IMG/VR virus record: IMGVR_UViG_3300047469_000180 | Coordinates: 1 to 21,516 of that record | Length of the DNA stretch: 21,516 nucleotides | Origin: a virus | Strand: one strand, 5' to 3' | Shown: piece by piece, positions 141 to 6,120 of the stretch | How the letters are laid out: each line of letters opens with the position of its first letter | Numbering within the stretch: the first letter of the stretch is position 1 | Program-made: the position numbers and the translations under genes | Notes under the pieces: model-generated | The model's database searches: none | What the model was told of the DNA's origin: nothing | The model's input: the letters and a program-made list of their open reading frames with translations, nothing else

Positions 141-171
141 GCGCAAAACCCGCGCAAAACTGGCGCAAAAC
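141..171. repeat. Three direct repeats GCGCAAAAC, 11-bp period, candidate integrase arm sites
   Basis: GCGCAAAAC occurs at 141-149, 152-160 and 163-171, exactly one helical turn apart. The array lies between the tRNA/attL core and the integrase stop codon. Lambda-type integrases bind short direct repeats (arm-type sites) flanking the core with their N-terminal domain. Position and phasing fit that role, but the assignment is inferred. Confidence 0.5.
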
Positions 172-1286
172 TATCCGGCGATTTCACTGATATCGAGGTC
201 GGGTACGGCCTCTGACCAGACCACTTCCGCGTGATCCTTCTGATAGTTTCTGGTCATCTCCTCGCTTGCGTGGCCAGCGATCTTTTGCCCATCCTTTCCG
301 GCTTTCTTGTACAGGTGCAGCGACAGCGCTCTGACTTCATGGAAGCCCGGCATTTCCTCTTCCTTCCATCCCTTGTAACAATCCGCTGCCTCCCGCGCTT
401 CCTTGAAAGCCCTGGTCAGATACCGTTCCTCAATCTTGGTCCAGTGCTCCTTCGTTTCAGCCTGCTTCTGTTTCTTTCGCTCCGGCCGCCGGTGGATTAG
501 AAACGGCGAGACGATATTGTCTCGGCAGTGGCTGATGACCCGCTGAAGCTCTGGTGTGACTTTGAACCGGATCCATGCCATGTCCGAGGCTTTGGCAGTC
601 TTCTGCTGGACCACGTACAGGTATCCATCCTTCACGTCTTCGAACTTCATGGACAGAATGTCGGTGCGCCGCTGCGCGGTGATCAGCGCCAGATCGATTG
701 CGTTCTGCAGCCAAGCGGGCGATTTCTCCCGGATCGCTTTCAGCCCGTTGACGGTGTGGCGCTTGCGGGCTTTCTTTTCGATCCGGCTGATTGTGCTCAT
801 TGCGGGGTTGTCGGGGCACAGCCCCTTCGCTGCGGCGTGGTTGAATATATCGATCAGCAGTGCACGGCACTGGTTTGCAGTACGAGGCGTTACCGAATCC
901 AGCAGCTCGGCGATCATGCGAATTGTGATCTGGTCGATAGCCTTGCCTTCGAACGCCTTCCGAAAACGTCGAAAATGCACCCCATACAGGGCGAGCGTCC
1001 CCTGGGAGAGCTCGCGAGGTGGCAGTACCCTCTCTTGATACTGGGTCAGGAATGCGGTGAACAGCTCGGCAGACTCGCCCATCACCGAGCCAACTAGGTC
1101 GGCGCCCTCCATGAAGGCGAGGTTCAATTGCTTGGCCGCGTCTACAGCTTTCACCCGATCGGCTCCGAACGGAAACCATTTGCCGTCAGTCGGCCTGCGG
1201 TACCGGTAGGTCCCGCGCCGATCATCCAGGTAGAGGTTCGGCGGCAAGCCTCTGTTCGACTTGTTGCGCGGCCTTGGGACCATCAT
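171..1286 (-). CDS. int: Tyrosine-recombinase phage integrase
   Basis: This 371-aa site-specific recombinase should catalyse prophage integration and, with Xis, excision. The N-terminal 40 residues (RGLPPNLYLDDRRGTYRYR) resemble the arm-binding domain of lambda-like integrases. A SAM-like core-binding domain follows (about 70-160). The catalytic domain shows Arg206 (TAQRRTDIL), Lys229 (QQKTA), the HxxR box at 316-319 (HEVR), His339 (AGHAS) and the nucleophile Tyr348 (TRNYQ). The start at 1286 is chosen because its ATG overlaps the excisionase stop (ATGA) and AGGAG lies 4 nt upstream; the longer upstream frame lacks such a site. Length is normal for the family. It is the last gene of the leftward early operon and points at the tRNA, so the tRNA-Pro is its probable target. 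Confidence 0.95.
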   Translation of the reverse strand: MMVPRPRNKSNRGLPPNLYLDDRRGTYRYRRPTDGKWFPFGADRVKAVDAAKQLNLAFMEGADLVGSVMGESAELFTAFLTQYQERVLPPRELSQGTLALYGVHFRRFRKAFEGKAIDQITIRMIAELLDSVTPRTANQCRALLIDIFNHAAAKGLCPDNPAMSTISRIEKKARKRHTVNGLKAIREKSPAWLQNAIDLALITAQRRTDILSMKFEDVKDGYLYVVQQKTAKASDMAWIRFKVTPELQRVISHCRDNIVSPFLIHRRPERKKQKQAETKEHWTKIEERYLTRAFKEAREAADCYKGWKEEEMPGFHEVRALSLHLYKKAGKDGQKIAGHASEEMTRNYQKDHAEVVWSEAVPDLDISEIAG

Positions 1287-1495
1287 GCAGCTCCTTTCAA
1301 TACCATCGCTACGAGCTCGTTGCCGGCGGACTTGTTGAAGGCCGCCCAATCGATATACCAGAGTTTTCCGATCTGCTCGCCCGGAAGCTTGCCGTCTCGG
1401 ATGTAGTTGCGGATCGCCTGGGAGCAGGGCGGCGTGCCGTTTTCCCCCCAGCGCCGGCGGCGGAATTCGCTGATCTTGATGAGTTCACGCTTCAT
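1283..1495 (-). CDS. xis: Excisionase-like DNA-binding protein
   Basis: A 70-aa basic protein starting MKRELIKISEFRRRRWG. The pattern 'I..SEF.RRRWG...PPCSQAIRNYIRDGKLPGEQIGKLWYID' is typical of small winged-helix/MerR-like excisionases: an N-terminal recognition helix, then the G-K-L-P-G turn and a W-Y/I-D strand. Such proteins bend attachment-site DNA and direct integrase to excision. Its ATG overlaps the stop of the upstream gene by 4 nt, and its TGA overlaps the integrase start by 4 nt, so the two are translationally coupled. The role is inferred from this pattern plus position. Confidence 0.8.
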   Translation of the reverse strand: MKRELIKISEFRRRRWGENGTPPCSQAIRNYIRDGKLPGEQIGKLWYIDWAAFNKSAGNELVAMVLKGAA

Positions 1496-2004
1496 GGCGT
1501 CACCATCCGTCGAGCCCAGCTGACATAGGGTCCATCCTCGGTATCGAAGATGCCCATCAGAAACCATTCAGGTCCGGGTGAAGCAGGGTTCCAGGCCGTG
1601 CACGCGGCATCTTCTTCGGGAAGTTCATAAGTCTCATCGCCCGCATTCCAGCCTTTCAGCTCCAGCCTTTGTTCAGCCACCCAGGCGAGATACGGCGCGG
1701 GGTCTTCGCCTTCCCCAAAGTCTGGGACATCTGGATGCCACCACCAACCATCCTTATCGCGAACAACCTCGGCCGGCCCGAAAACCTTCGGCGAATGGAT
1801 AGAACACGGTGTGACGTAAAAGACATTCGAATACTGGCCGCCGCCGTCGCTGAAGCGCGATGTGCAGCCACACTGTGCTGGATTGTCGTTCAGGAAAATG
1901 ATTTCTTCAGTCATGACTTCGTCCTCGCCGCATACGCAGCAGGCAATTGGGAAAGAGATATATGAGCCGTCGATCCGGTTGAATTGAATTAGCTGATCAG
2001 CCAC
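1492..2004 (-). CDS. Conserved-looking phage hypothetical protein, Trp-rich, putative zinc ribbon
   Basis: 170 aa if started at GTG 2004. An internal ATG at 1914 (giving 140 aa) has a better ribosome site (GAGGA about 9 nt upstream). I keep the longer form because its first part holds Cys residues (CCVCGED near 22-25, then QCGC near 44-47) that look like a zinc-ribbon pair set; this is not decisive. The second half is aromatic and acidic (RDKDGWWWHPDVPDFGEGED, PYLAWVAEQRLELKGWNAGD) and ends DTEDGPYVSWARRM. It has the look of a small cytosolic phage accessory protein, but I do not recognise a named family. The stop overlaps the excisionase start (ATGA), so it belongs to the int operon. Confidence 0.7.
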   Translation of the reverse strand: MADQLIQFNRIDGSYISFPIACCVCGEDEVMTEEIIFLNDNPAQCGCTSRFSDGGGQYSNVFYVTPCSIHSPKVFGPAEVVRDKDGWWWHPDVPDFGEGEDPAPYLAWVAEQRLELKGWNAGDETYELPEEDAACTAWNPASPGPEWFLMGIFDTEDGPYVSWARRMVTP

Positions 2005-2162
2005 GACTCACAGATAGATGGAATCGATAACCGATTGCTTTTAGTAAGTAGGTTTTTCCGCATGCAGACCGCAGACGATTTCCGTTTCACAGCCCATTCG
2101 CTGCTACTCGCCTTGGATGAGTCGACCATCAACATGATGAAGATAGTGGTGCTCTCTTCCAT
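1989..2162 (-). CDS. Possible small ORF, uncertain
   Basis: A 57-codon frame starts at ATG 2162 (MEESTTIFIMLMVDSSKAS...) with AGGA about 6 nt upstream, and it ends 16 nt inside the next gene if that gene starts at GTG 2004. It is Ser- and Lys-rich with no recognisable domain. The frame stays open upstream to 2318 but without a good start codon. Spacing and overlap fit the operon, but nothing else supports it. It could equally be non-coding. Confidence 0.25.
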   Translation of the reverse strand: MEESTTIFIMLMVDSSKASSSEWAVKRKSSAVCMRKNLLTKSNRLSIPSICESWLIS

Positions 2163-2393
2163 GGGAAGTCCTGCCTGGAAGTCTGCCGTTATCGTGCAGC
2201 AGGCTTCGTTCGCGGCTCTGCATCTGCATCTTGGGCACGTAGACGCTCCAGCCCTAATGCAGGCCAGGTAGTAGGCACTGCGAGTACCGACGGCGTGTCT
2301 CGCCGCATACCGCAGCAAGGAATGTGGTAAATAAATCCGAGCCGGTAGGGCGGAAAGTAAGATTTTCCGGGCTGGGGTAGGATGTTCTGAGGG
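2163..2393. other. Stretch without a convincing gene
   Basis: No ORF here has a good start and ribosome site on either strand. The one notable item is ctcgccgcataccgcagcaa at 2299-2318, which nearly repeats ctcgccgcatacgcagcagg at 1924-1943 inside the neighbouring gene. On the minus strand both read GCTGCG(G)TATGCGGCGAG. The stretch may therefore hold a decayed copy of the start of that gene or a shared regulatory sequence. Confidence 0.4.
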
Positions 2394-2942
2394 TTATTGC
2401 GGGGCGTTCTGCTTAATGAAGGCTGCAACGCATTGGGCACCGTATTCCTTCATCTGCTCCAGCGTGTATCCGGGAACTTCGCGCTCTGGCTGAAGGAAGC
2501 CCCAGTGACGTGGCGGGTGTGGCAGCAGTGTTTGAGGCGGGAGCAGATTGCTTTGTATTCGGAGCTGCTCCGAACATTGCGGGCTGACCTCCGAACATTG
2601 CGAAAAGTGGTAAAGCTTGCGAATTTCGTAATGCTCGGGCTGGCATCGGGATAATTCAAGCGAATCACCGCTGACGTCTTCCCAACAGCAGGAGCCGTGG
2701 GAGCGAACTTGGTACACCGGCTCTTTCACCGCTGCGCGGACATCCTCGGGCGGCGCGGCTCGTTCAGCAATAACCCGCTTTGACACTTCATGGCAGCAAC
2801 CGAGTGCGTCGTGCATGGTTTCGTCGTTCATGGCTGTTTGAGCATGAACCAGTGCCGGAGAAAGGTAGTAAGAAAGCTTCACAGCCAGTTCCTGCCAGCT
2901 CAGCGCATCGAAATCTGTCGGAAAATCGTATTCCTTTCTCAT
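2394..2942 (-). CDS. Phage Ea22-like hypothetical protein
   Basis: 182 aa, starting MRKEYDFPTDFDALSWQELA, with a clean AGGAGA 6 nt before the ATG. The middle (EPVYQVRSHGSCCWEDVSGD, then CQPEHYEIRKLY) matches the 'VYQVR..GS..W.DV......EVR.LY' pattern found in many accessory early proteins of lambdoid phages (Ea22-like and related). These proteins have no established biochemical role. The C-terminus ends YTLEQMKEYGAQCVAAF. Its ATG overlaps the stop of the upstream gene by 4 nt. Seven or more cysteines are present but no clear zinc motif. Confidence 0.75.
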   Translation of the reverse strand: MRKEYDFPTDFDALSWQELAVKLSYYLSPALVHAQTAMNDETMHDALGCCHEVSKRVIAERAAPPEDVRAAVKEPVYQVRSHGSCCWEDVSGDSLELSRCQPEHYEIRKLYHFSQCSEVSPQCSEQLRIQSNLLPPQTLLPHPPRHWGFLQPEREVPGYTLEQMKEYGAQCVAAFIKQNAPQ

Positions 2943-3133
2943 GATGTCTCCTGAATATCCCGCTCGCCATCAGCCCGGATGGCGTCGATGGCGTATTGGT
3001 TGATTTCTCTTGCGATGGTCAGCGCTAGCGCCGGGGTCAGATAAACCTGAGGCAAGCGGTGAAGGCTGATTCGGTGCATATCGTCACGACCCAGCAGCAC
3101 CGTGGCTCGGACTTGTTGAACTGGTTCAGGCAT
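2939..3133 (-). CDS. Small hypothetical protein
   Basis: 64 aa (MPEPVQQVRATVLLGRDDMH... ALTIAREINQYAIDAIRADG). Start ATG 3133 is preceded by AGGGA 8 nt upstream; a TTG at 3154 would add seven residues. The C-terminal half is predicted helical and ends with the downstream gene's overlapping ATGA. I do not recognise the family. It is the first gene after the pair of palindromes at 3146-3191, so it may be the first gene of a locally regulated segment of the left operon. Confidence 0.65.
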   Translation of the reverse strand: MPEPVQQVRATVLLGRDDMHRISLHRLPQVYLTPALALTIAREINQYAIDAIRADGERDIQETS

Positions 3134-3145
3134 GGCGATATCCCT

Positions 3146-3191
3146 GTAACCCAATTAGGTTACTTTTCGAGATGTAACCTGGTTAGGTTAC
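3146..3191. promoter_or_regulatory. Twin palindromes GTAACC-N6-GGTTAC, operator-like
   Basis: Two inverted repeats with identical arms, GTAACC/GGTTAC, lie at 3146-3163 and 3174-3191, exactly 28 bp apart. The spacers differ (CAATTA and TGGTTA). They sit in the short gap between the methyltransferase stop and the start of the 64-aa gene. No T-run follows, so a terminator is unlikely. Identical arms with variable spacers suggest a dimeric regulator. The half-site core TAACC also occurs in the CI/Cro operators, but those have a 3-bp spacer, so this is probably a different protein. Confidence 0.5.
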
Positions 3192-3202
3192 TTTGGGGTG
3201 GG

Positions 3203-4396
3203 TCAGAGTTGTTGCAGGAGGCGAAGGCCGAGCCATCGAACGACAGTCACGGCTTTGCTGTTTCCGATAGCCTTGTAGCGAGGGCCGTCAGGGCAGTCGT
3301 TGGCTGGCTTGCCGCGCCAGGGGATCAGGGTGTAGTCGTCGCGGAAACCTTGCAGGCGCTCAAACTCATTTGGGGTCAGACGGCGGATAGTGGAATTGCA
3401 GAGAACCGCATTCTCTTGCCCGGTATTCCGACCCAGAACGTGAGCCAGATCTTCAAGCACGCACGGGTCTTGCGTCCCATGAACAACAAAAAACGTCTCG
3501 CTTTCGATGTCCAGCCGACTGTCTTTTGCCGTGAGCGTGGCCGACCGCTCGATCGAGCTTGCAAGGCTGTGGCCGCCAAACGCCGGGATGCCGCCGAACA
3601 TGGTCACCGCCGGGCCTTCATCGCCCTCGCAGTTCATGCAGCCGTAGTGACCAAGCTCTTCGGGGAAGACGTTTCCGCATCCGCACTGGAGTGCAGGGCC
3701 GAAAGGAGCTGTTCCGGTAACGTCTTGCCCCTCACCTCGGCGCGGCGCAGTATCCCGGCGCACGCCTTCGCGCTCAAAAAGTACCTCAAGGGGATCGAAC
3801 CCTCTTCGAGCACTTGCGACAACGAACACACGGCGCCGTCGTTGGGCCAGGCCGAAATATTGGGCGTCCAGGATCCGCCACGCGACTGTTCTTTTGGGTC
3901 CATACACACAACCAGCGTCTGTCCACCGCTTCCCTGAAGGCTGCAGCTCGCAGTCTTCCCCAGCAAGCGCACCAAGAAAGCATCCGAAGGCGTTTTGCTT
4001 ATCGGAAAGGACTCCGGGGACGTTTTCCCAGACGACGACACACTCGTCATCGCCGCGGGCTGTTCGAACATGGTCAACTGCATCTGCGAGCTCCACATAT
4101 TTGATGGTGAGTGCGCCGCGCGGATCCAGCAGGCCTTGGCGCATGCCGGCAACGCTGAACGCCTGGCAGGGTGTGCCGCCAACGAGCACGGGCGGCGCCT
4201 TGATCTTACCGGCGAGCACCAGGGCGGCGAGCTTGGTCATGTCGCCGTGGTTCTTCACCTTAGGGTAATGGTGAGCCAGCACGGCGGAGGGGAAGGGCTC
4301 AATCTCGGCGAACCAGATCGGGTTCATGCCCAGCGGATGCCAGGCGGCGGTTGCGGCTTCGATGCCGCTGCATACGCTTCCGTAATCGATAGGCAT
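3203..4396 (-). CDS. DNA (cytosine-5-)-methyltransferase
   Basis: 397 aa, full-length C5-MTase that transfers a methyl group from S-adenosylmethionine to cytosine C5 in a specific DNA sequence. Motifs are in order: I, YGSVCSGIEA (5-14); IV, GGTPCQAFS with catalytic Cys77; VI, WENVPG (123-128); VIII, QRRRRVF (185-191); IX, RRLTPNEFERLQGF (338-351); X, YKAIGNSKAV (374-383). The target-recognition region between VIII and IX contains a Cys cluster (LQCGCG..., YGCMNCEGD) that could bind zinc. No restriction enzyme gene is adjacent, so it is an orphan, probably protecting phage DNA from host restriction. The ribosome site is weak (GAG about 10 nt upstream). The start is 44 bp from the oppositely oriented putAbiC-like gene. 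Confidence 0.95.
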   Translation of the reverse strand: MPIDYGSVCSGIEAATAAWHPLGMNPIWFAEIEPFPSAVLAHHYPKVKNHGDMTKLAALVLAGKIKAPPVLVGGTPCQAFSVAGMRQGLLDPRGALTIKYVELADAVDHVRTARGDDECVVVWENVPGVLSDKQNAFGCFLGALAGEDCELQPSGKRWTDAGCVYGPKRTVAWRILDAQYFGLAQRRRRVFVVASARRGFDPLEVLFEREGVRRDTAPRRGEGQDVTGTAPFGPALQCGCGNVFPEELGHYGCMNCEGDEGPAVTMFGGIPAFGGHSLASSIERSATLTAKDSRLDIESETFFVVHGTQDPCVLEDLAHVLGRNTGQENAVLCNSTIRRLTPNEFERLQGFRDDYTLIPWRGKPANDCPDGPRYKAIGNSKAVTVVRWLGLRLLQQL

Positions 4397-4440: not shown

Positions 4441-5271
4441 ATGGCTACACGGAAAAAAATCACCGAAGCTTTTTTTTTGCTTCTGCGTTCGGCAGCAGTT
4501 TTTGCAGCTGTGGTCGGTATCTATTACTTGTTTGTCGATTTCTTGGTTTCCGATCATCCTTATTTGCAGCTGCCAAATAAATTTAGAGACGGCTCGTTCG
4601 GGGATACTTTCGGTTCGCTGAATGCTTTGTTTTCTGGGTTGGCATTTGCCGGAGTTGTCGTAACGTTACTTATGCAAAGGAAAGACTTAACGGTCCAACG
4701 ACGGGATATTGAAGAGGCAAGGCAGCAAGCATCTCATCAAAAAATAGAGTCCCAGTTTTATAGTATGCTGACCCTCCAGCAGAATGTTGTCAGCGGATTT
4801 GATGTCAAAAGAAAGGGGGAGCTTTTACATTCCGGCCGGGATTGCTTCAAAGTCTGGTATAGATTTCTGGAGAGTGAGTATCGAGGCAGCCTTTCTGAGG
4901 GCTACGCTAAGCTTGAGGACTCTTACGAACTGATGTGGTTGAAATACCAAGGCGATTTAAGCTTGTACTTTAGAAGTTTGTATTCAGTTTTTAGGTTTAT
5001 TTCAGAGTCAGGGCATCCAGATACGTTAAGGTTTGGAAGTGTGGTCAGGTCTTTCTTATCTGACTTTGAGCTTGTTATTCTCTATTATAATTGCCTTAAT
5101 AAAAAGGGGGAGCCTTTCAAAAAATATGTATCCCAGTTTAAGGTGTTTGATAATCTTGATGTTGAAATGCTAATTGATGTTGGTGAACTAGTTGAGTTTG
5201 ACGCTTCATCATTTGGCGCAAATGAACATGCGCTTTATATTCGCTCCATTCTGCTGAACTCTAGACAATGA
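4441..5271 (+). CDS. Putative phage abortive infection membrane protein (putAbiC-like)
   Basis: 276 aa, with AGGAGA 9 nt before the ATG. Two membrane segments are visible (about 13-36 and 58-78), followed by a charged coiled coil (MQRKDLTVQRRDIEEARQQ) and a cytoplasmic domain. The signature GSFGDTFGSLNALFSGLAFA leading into LLMQRKDL, then QFYSMLTLQQNVV, GRDCF (132-136) and DLSLYFRSLYSVFRFI (172-187), matches what I know of the 'putative phage abortive infection protein' family (putAbiC, Pfam). Family members are thought to sense infection at the membrane; the mechanism is not established. It runs against the leftward operon, is clearly AT-richer than its neighbours, and abuts a truncated gene end, all signs of recent insertion as a lysogenic-conversion (moron) gene. 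Defence activity is inferred. Confidence 0.8.
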   Translation: MATRKKITEAFFLLLRSAAVFAAVVGIYYLFVDFLVSDHPYLQLPNKFRDGSFGDTFGSLNALFSGLAFAGVVVTLLMQRKDLTVQRRDIEEARQQASHQKIESQFYSMLTLQQNVVSGFDVKRKGELLHSGRDCFKVWYRFLESEYRGSLSEGYAKLEDSYELMWLKYQGDLSLYFRSLYSVFRFISESGHPDTLRFGSVVRSFLSDFELVILYYNCLNKKGEPFKKYVSQFKVFDNLDVEMLIDVGELVEFDASSFGANEHALYIRSILLNSRQ

Positions 5272-5352: not shown

Positions 5353-6120
5353 TCATCCACCGCAGTAGCCAGAGTCACACTTGCTGATAGGAAACAGCTG
5401 CATCTGATCTCGCGCTCTGGGCGCGTCTGCCCACTTAAGAACGGCGCGAATACCGACCGCATTCTTTCTGCGCGCAGACCTGAACATCACGCGCGCCTTA
5501 CCTTTCTGAGTGAATCCAAGCTCCTGCTCGGTGATGTCGATGAGACGTATCCGGTCCTCGGACAGCACCCGAAGCTCGTCAATGTTTGCATTGACGCACG
5601 GGTAGCATTCGTTGGACCGGTGCGGCAGTGGCTCGAATCCAGCCCTGGACAACAATTGATTACGCATCGTGTCGTCGTGGCGAACCAGCGGCTGCCACAA
5701 CTCTCGACCACCATGCCGCTCCGATTCGATAACGTGTTCGGGCGCATCCGCTCGATGGGCGCTTTCTGATCTGCGAACGCCTGTCATCGCTGTCGCCAGC
5801 TTTTGCGGGTCATGTTCATCCAGCCATGACAGGGCAGGCTGCACTTTCAATTCGGCAGTGCAGAACTGGCCTTGGCCGCCAGCGCCAGGCCAGCCGCGTT
5901 TTCGCTTCACCAACGCGACCATTCCCTCTGACTTGGTCTGCACCGTCTGGAAGTCGTAGCTGTGAGCAAGCGCCTCGCCCCGAGCTACTCGTTCCGCCCA
6001 TTCCTTTGCAGCCCATCCAGTATCGGAGTAGAGGCATGTGACATCCGGCAGCCTATTTTCATGGGCCCACTGGATCAGCGCGATTGAGTCGTTTCCATAA
6101 CTGCAGAACAGAACGTGCAT
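5353..6120 (-). CDS. PAPS-reductase-family protein (PP-loop)
   Basis: 255 aa, ATG preceded by GGAGGA 4 nt upstream. The PP-loop SYGNDS (7-12) binds ATP/adenylyl groups in this family. FCTAELKVQPALSWL (86-100), GVRRSESAHRA (114-124), C172-x2-C175 and C248-x4-C253 are consistent with the phage/genomic-island subgroup related to PAPS/APS reductases and to DndC-type enzymes, which may carry a metal or Fe-S site. True PAPS reductases make sulfite, and DndC-like ones take part in DNA phosphorothioation; which reaction applies here cannot be read from the sequence. It lies in the left operon upstream of the cytosine methyltransferase, so a nucleic-acid modification role is possible (inference). Confidence 0.85.
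   Translation of the reverse strand: MHVLFCSYGNDSIALIQWAHENRLPDVTCLYSDTGWAAKEWAERVARGEALAHSYDFQTVQTKSEGMVALVKRKRGWPGAGGQGQFCTAELKVQPALSWLDEHDPQKLATAMTGVRRSESAHRADAPEHVIESERHGGRELWQPLVRHDDTMRNQLLSRAGFEPLPHRSNECYPCVNANIDELRVLSEDRIRLIDITEQELGFTQKGKARVMFRSARRKNAVGIRAVLKWADAPRARDQMQLFPISKCDSGYCGG

Follow-up and report, generated by a model that had tools for sequence, protein, structure and literature searches.

Paired GTAACC-N6-GGTTAC dyads in temperate phages of Pseudomonas as a probable operator of the host's SatD-type regulator

Phage and prophage promoters may use a repressor of the host, LexA sites being an example. Among described phage elements, the nearest look-alike of the one analysed here is the extended start-associated sequence (ESAS) of cluster K mycobacteriophages, in which conserved inverted repeats lie just upstream of the start codons of accessory genes (Pope et al. 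2011, PMC3203893; also PMC12699233). According to these reports, the repeat sequence varies between subclusters at fixed positions and the repeats can be absent before a homologous gene (PMC3203893, PMC12699233), while a 13-bp SAS, GGGATAGGAGCCC, stands next to the 17-bp inverted repeats in several copies per genome (PMC3203893). The pair of dyads that we studied, found in a stretch of viral DNA of 21,516 nucleotides (the window), is like ESAS in having inverted repeats before accessory-gene starts, a repeat sequence specific to the group and a site that is optional. It differs in that ESAS has several copies, one pair of 17-bp repeats, a variable spacer and the 13-bp SAS alongside, whereas the window pair has one copy per record, two 18-bp dyads at a fixed 28 bp and a known bacterial gene with matching dyads. 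We therefore rejected the assignment of the pair to ESAS, the leader here being AGGGATATCGCC as against the SAS GGGATAGGAGCCC, with a single pair per record. The bacterial gene pair satD (PF16264) and DUF3307 (PF11750) has upstream of it the same motif, spacing and arm classes as the phage pair, except that the phages carry the motif without the genes. As in phages with LexA-type sites, the operator of a host regulator in phage DNA would tie expression to the state of the host, but the phage pair is intergenic and lacks a promoter, and its arms change class with the host's regulator. Our main reading, to which we give a probability of about 0.68 on the strength of sequence comparison, is that the pair is the DNA operator of the host's SatD-type regulator, kept by temperate phages of satD-bearing Pseudomonas.

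An earlier note on this DNA had described a pair of GTAACC-N6-GGTTAC palindromes 28 bp apart at 3146-3191, and the two dyads are indeed exact at these positions, 28 bp from centre to centre, with no third exact match in the window (Table 1). Exact matches did not occur in any of 100 dinucleotide-preserving shuffles, and a chance origin was rejected. The note had also proposed a motif scan of the prophage and its relatives. With up to 3 mismatches allowed, the window gave 4 matches against 3.25 expected, so it has no sites beyond the two, and in the relatives the arms and the 28-bp spacing are conserved, as described below. The pair is intergenic, between the stop codon of the C5 methyltransferase gene (3203) and the ATG at 3133 of the next ORF, both on the minus strand; the latter ORF has no Pfam or PHROG match. 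At 2950-3450 of the window we saw neither promoter-like hexamers (the sigma-70 type was scanned) nor an intrinsic terminator with a GC-rich stem and T run, and both were rejected as explanations of the pair. An Rfam RNA family was likewise rejected, as matches at the pair were at chance level and none reached the gathering score. The 91-base element found no similar DNA in the 'phages' collection.

Table 1. Positions of the paired dyads, their flanks and neighbouring genes in the window; the dyads are named in transcript orientation.
Feature	Position	Strand	Remark
Tyrosine integrase gene, downstream of the pair	171..1349	-	PF00589
Excisionase-like gene, downstream of the pair	1283..1567	-	phrog_629, E 2.5e-4
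Slot-2 gene, ORF of 64 aa	2939..3133	-	relatives in cluster 1, 26 downstream genes
Constant downstream leader AGGGATATCGCC with start ATG of the next gene	3131..3145	-	
Second dyad, GTAACC-TAATTG-GGTTAC	3146..3163	-	exact match; conserved
10-bp linker between the dyads, ATCTCGAAAA	3164..3173	-	commonest linker
First dyad, GTAACC-TAACCA-GGTTAC	3174..3191	-	exact match, 0 in shuffles; conserved in phages
Constant upstream flank, methyltransferase stop TGA with CCCACCCCAAA	3192..3205	-	
Slot-1 gene, C5 cytosine DNA methyltransferase	3203..4396	-	PF00145, E 1.1e-30; phrog_116

A scan for exact arms in two dyads, with a gap of 0-30 bp allowed, gave 60 viral contigs with a GTAACC-N6-GGTTAC pair, and the spacing is 28 bp in 58 of them and 27 bp in the other two (L081 and L082). 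When 48 records, some of which may be fragments, were scanned whole with up to 3 mismatches, 46 held one 28-bp pair each, the exceptions being the records of L081 and L082. Read in the orientation of the transcript, the commonest phage form is TGACCAACCCCAAA - GTAACC-N6-GGTTAC - ATCTCGAAAA - GTAACC-N6-GGTTAC - AGGGATATCGCC-ATG, and the linker ATCTCGAAAA is that of 19 of the 41 distinct phage pairs of class A, that is, with GTAACC arms. Six viral contigs carry pairs with GTAGCC arms instead, among similar kinds of genes and with a different leader, and the spacing is 28 bp in all six (gaps of 8-12 allowed). Since exact arms were demanded in the scans for GTAACC pairs, viral and chromosomal, and for GTAGCC pairs, the invariance of the arms in those sets proves nothing. 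Identical arms with different spacers, as claimed earlier, are however also seen in 26 viral contigs that were matched on linker and leader only and thus chosen without requiring the arms: here non-consensus letters amount to 4 of 624 in the arms against 38 of 312 in the spacers (Fisher p 4e-15, which is not a true probability because the sequences are related). Conservation and fixed spacing are established by comparison. A scan for single sites returned 23 stretches, mostly lone dyads in unrelated contigs, with the pair present only in L007, L012, L017, L018 and L022. Two viral contigs of other kinds also have a 28-bp pair, at 2390-2435 of L046 and 2080-2125 of L066, and both begin where a gene has its stop codon.

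The gene context was read from 76 oriented loci, comprising the window, 59 viral GTAACC loci, 10 prophage loci on bacterial contigs and 6 viral GTAGCC loci; L046 and L066 were dropped from these counts, leaving 74, and L007, L081 and L082 never entered the set. An upstream ORF was obtained at 63 of the 74 and a downstream ORF at 65. The former stops at -14 relative to the pair in 45, as does the window methyltransferase with its TGA, and at -13 in 7, while the latter starts at +12 in 58, as in the window, and at +13 in 5. At these fixed distances the upstream genes form 13 clusters and the downstream genes 5, combined in 23 ways, and hence the genes on both sides change between constant linkers. 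DNA methyltransferases, counted by cluster, lie upstream in 41 of the 63 loci, namely cluster 0 (30 loci in three subtypes, each with one member tested as methyltransferase), cluster 1 (8 loci, including the window) and cluster 4 (3 loci). The placing of the site within the leftward operon, upstream of xis and int, was confirmed and is conserved across loci: wherever they were found, int (27/27) and xis (17/17) lie downstream on the strand of the pair, the window being included in both counts. Upstream on the same strand are recT in 7 loci, yqaJ in 8 and CI in 4. The pair is optional in this phage region. Relatives of the window's methyltransferase numbered 33, of which 31 were read past the stop codon, and a dyad follows at +14 in 7, in one of which (L169) the second dyad is damaged. 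In L170-L173, where the methyltransferase is 93-94% identical and a usual slot-2 gene adjoins, there is a short linker without dyads. By eye, many unrelated slot-1 genes (L038, L030, L093, L034 and others) share a leader of the type GAATCACGCCACTGGCGAGGATC..ATG, which is a second linker, besides the pair, of the gene-exchange region.

In the collection of species genomes the exact pair occurs at 33 loci in 25 genomes, ten of them prophage loci with phage flanks. Of the 23 non-prophage chromosomal pairs, 22 adjoin a SatD-type gene followed by a DUF3307-type membrane gene. The remaining one, in Idiomarina (L095, 5265-5310), stands before a gene for a PAS-domain protein resembling photoactive yellow protein; this genome has satD elsewhere, and the pair is perhaps a further target of SatD in trans. 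A total of 28 satD loci were compared, most of them fetched through the motif itself, the motif-free ones being 8 found by protein and the plasmid loci. The protein search recovered satD in 9 of 348 Pseudomonas genomes, one being a remnant, and all 8 intact genes, found in this motif-free way, have a 28-bp pair upstream (3 GTAACC, 5 GTAGCC; in two of the latter one outer half-site is TTAGCC). The switch between GTAACC and GTAGCC arms tracks the SatD clade (58-64% identity), and both this concerted switch and the linkage to satD are likewise established by comparison. The window pair conforms exactly to the GTARCC-arm dyads at 28-bp spacing of the chromosomal satD loci and differs from them in that no satD gene adjoins it. 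Among plasmid records with SatD, 7 of 13 were examined. A satD of a Vibrio lentus plasmid has three TTAGCC dyads 28 bp apart and that of P. piscicida has a 28-bp pair in which either dyad shows one mismatch (0/200 shuffles for each of the two satD genes), and at three enterobacterial plasmid loci AACC..GGTT dyads stand at 29 bp. In the tiny mobilisable E. coli plasmid pEC34A (L220, 3770 bp), satD-DUF3307 at 1792-3481 is the main cargo, with dyads upstream. In all 6 class A satD promoters of Pseudomonas the last dyad is followed after 16-17 bp by a TATAGT box and the dyads cover the -35 region, while in Pseudoalteromonas the last, weaker dyad ends 13-19 bp before the ATG in 13 of 15 loci. Such varied placement of the dyads relative to promoter or ATG suits a repressor.

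We next consider the proteins and the hosts. A Pseudoalteromonas protein matches Pfam SatD below the cut-off and its neighbour matches DUF3307; the SatD-type proteins of Pseudomonas have no such Pfam match and are related to those of Pseudoalteromonas (28% identity, E 2e-17), the neighbouring gene being of DUF3307 type by tblastn. For L086 and L231 the Pfam SatD match falls short of the cut-off, and L100 has none. A structure model of SatD (pLDDT 83.6) has a cyclase-like topology with a helical C-terminus. Among the 50 Foldseek matches listed, nearly all are GGDEF, class III cyclase or GTP cyclohydrolase III structures, one only being at E <= 0.001 and the TM-scores modest. One plasmid SatD matches a helix-turn-helix family above the cut-off. 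A defence role by annotation was rejected for satD and DUF3307, as four of these proteins gave no PADLOC match. Our literature search, of partial coverage and hampered by the ambiguity of the name SatD, found no work on function or DNA binding of SatD or DUF3307. A phage-encoded SatD was rejected too: we found satD in none of 35 phage records (a search with no internal positive control, the same query having matched elsewhere) and in none of the window ORFs, and the L100 SatD protein had no match in the 'phages' collection. Six Pseudomonas genomes have an intact satD of the GTAACC class (G050, G057, G058, G061, G064 and G069), and all six also have a prophage-type GTAACC pair, a count that ignores kinship of the hosts; in G069 that pair has one mismatch and lies in a prophage remnant adjoining recT. 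Conversely, among genomes with prophage-type pairs satD is intact in 6 of 8, a remnant in G053 and without any SatD match in the metagenome-assembled G054. The association with satD hosts comes from comparison, and close kinship may link the hosts that have both satD and prophage pairs. Of the 348 Pseudomonas genomes, 53 carry genes related to one junction and 5 the GTAACC pair. The locus L225 of G053 is a natural case of satD loss, its satD-DUF3307 being reduced to a remnant while three prophage-type pairs are kept in the genome.

The claim of the earlier note that a protein recognises the site is well supported by comparison, since the arms and the 28-bp spacing are kept, the spacers differ from site to site and the arms switch with the clade of the linked helix-turn-helix protein, SatD. 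The regulator is likely a protein of the host, which that note had not foreseen: as the phage pair matches the sequences before satD, these phages apparently bring with them a docking site for a protein of the host. SatD, with a predicted cyclase-fold domain and C-terminal helix-turn-helix, would bind 18-bp dyads 28 bp apart, probably with one dimer per dyad and with neighbouring dimers cooperating, and would repress its own satD-DUF3307 operon. The phage would keep one copy of the operator upstream of xis and int, with slot 2 on one side and on the other an exchangeable slot-1 gene that in most cases encodes a DNA methyltransferase; here bound SatD could act as a roadblock and couple this end of the operon to the state of the host regulator; since no promoter is seen at the phage site, a roadblock is the simplest action of the bound protein. 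We infer SatD to be the binder and a repressor, and its binding to affect the phage, in the following degrees: it is likely that host SatD binds the phage pair, it is likely that it represses its own promoter, and it is plausible that at the phage pair it hinders or stops transcripts heading for slot 2, xis and int, or serves there as a sensor of host state. Against an operator of SatD speak the SatD-like genes that lack the pair, none being found at the distant L149-L151 or at the Segatella plasmid L230, and P. fragi (L221) having no pair and a single dyad by eye; so do GTAGCC pairs without satD and the prophage pairs in G053 and G054. A wider proposal is tentative and, taken whole, doubtful: phages would have taken over the operator of a sensor-regulator of the host that has a cyclase-like domain, with specificity switching along with the host's and host signalling wired into the anti-restriction and excision operon, the site being also a fixed boundary of accessory-gene exchange at which flanked chromosomal satD-DUF3307 units are gained or lost precisely. 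A little-studied unit of chromosomes and small plasmids thereby gains a DNA motif that can be tested directly, and a candidate regulatory link between phage and host, whose specificity seems to follow the host, comes into view. Should the cyclase-like domain let SatD bind or produce a nucleotide, these phages may use the protein to read a signal of the host.

The pair could instead be the target or scar of a precise gene exchange, site-specific or homologous, between pairs, which we consider unlikely, though the likeliest of three rival readings. The satD-DUF3307 units of Pseudomonas have a pair at each end, the second being present after DUF3307 at all 11 loci (in G295 at a distance of about 300 bp), and the DUF3307 stop codon, TAA or, in the GTAGCC class, TAG, lies inside its first arm in 7 of these 11 and in Pseudidiomarina L123. 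Four Pseudomonas genomes (G183, G195, G243 and G308) have one GTAGCC pair and no satD at the place of satD, beside a gene labelled LysR-like by likeness to one tested gene. Where G183 has the single pair G083 has pair-satD-DUF3307-pair, and the outer flanks are alike, the left one with 86% identity across 401 aligned columns and the right one with 82% across 304; among relatives around G195 no closer filled site was found. Moreover, the phage genes on both sides swap at exact stop and start codons. Yet the satD unit has no recombinase, the downstream pair is absent from all 13 Pseudoalteromonas loci examined and from Idiomarina L122, and homologous exchange at any conserved linker would have the same appearance. 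An operator better explains why dyads stand at promoters, why the arms switch along with the SatD clade and why the relatives L170-L173 have the same genes and no pair.

Comparison of whole pairs bears on this reading and on one in which the intercistronic RNA folds, as two hairpins or one long one, and sets the stability or translation of the neighbouring genes. In hand-picked distinct pairs, with related loci treated as independent, chromosomal pairs are palindromic as a whole, both upstream (4.00 of 6 spacer positions against 2.76 permuted, 17 pairs) and downstream (3.83 against 3.07, 12 pairs), and phage pairs are not (2.00 against 1.95, 34 distinct pairs), the spacers of the two phage dyads being no more complementary than when permuted. 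This keeps exchange between pairs alive, disfavours a long RNA hairpin in the phages, and means that binding may differ somewhat between phage and chromosome. The phage pair is indeed part of the transcript, with a stop codon on one side and a ribosome site on the other; folding of the 75-nt RNA gives -24.2 kcal/mol (z -3.9), and position 7 of the phage dyads is mostly T-A, T-G or C-G and never C-A, as RNA pairing permits. But a good fold is built into any tandem of dyads, 4 and 5 of 41 distinct pairs have a T-C at position 7 that breaks the base pair, no Rfam family matches, and the class A satD dyads lie upstream of the -10 element and hence outside the transcript, making an RNA element improbable. 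Slightly more improbable is a decoy, by which the operator of the replicating phage would draw SatD off its own promoter and change satD-DUF3307 expression. With this would agree that 46 of 48 records have a single intact operator, that genes of many kinds can adjoin it and that no promoter is nearby; any location would serve, however, whereas place and orientation are kept (27/27 with int), and a single site per genome makes a weak decoy.

Other genes of the window deserve mention. On the strand opposite to the leftward operon, the gene at 4441-5271 (+) matches the abortive-infection families putAbiC and AbiP and is likely an accessory gene carried by the prophage. The gene at 5353-6120 (-) encodes a PAPS-reductase-like protein with weak similarity to SspD/DndC, relatives of which are the slot-1 genes immediately before the pair in three loci. 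Beside the integrase gene lies a tRNA gene (6-79, +), the usual kind of attachment site and the sole Rfam match at gathering score in the window.
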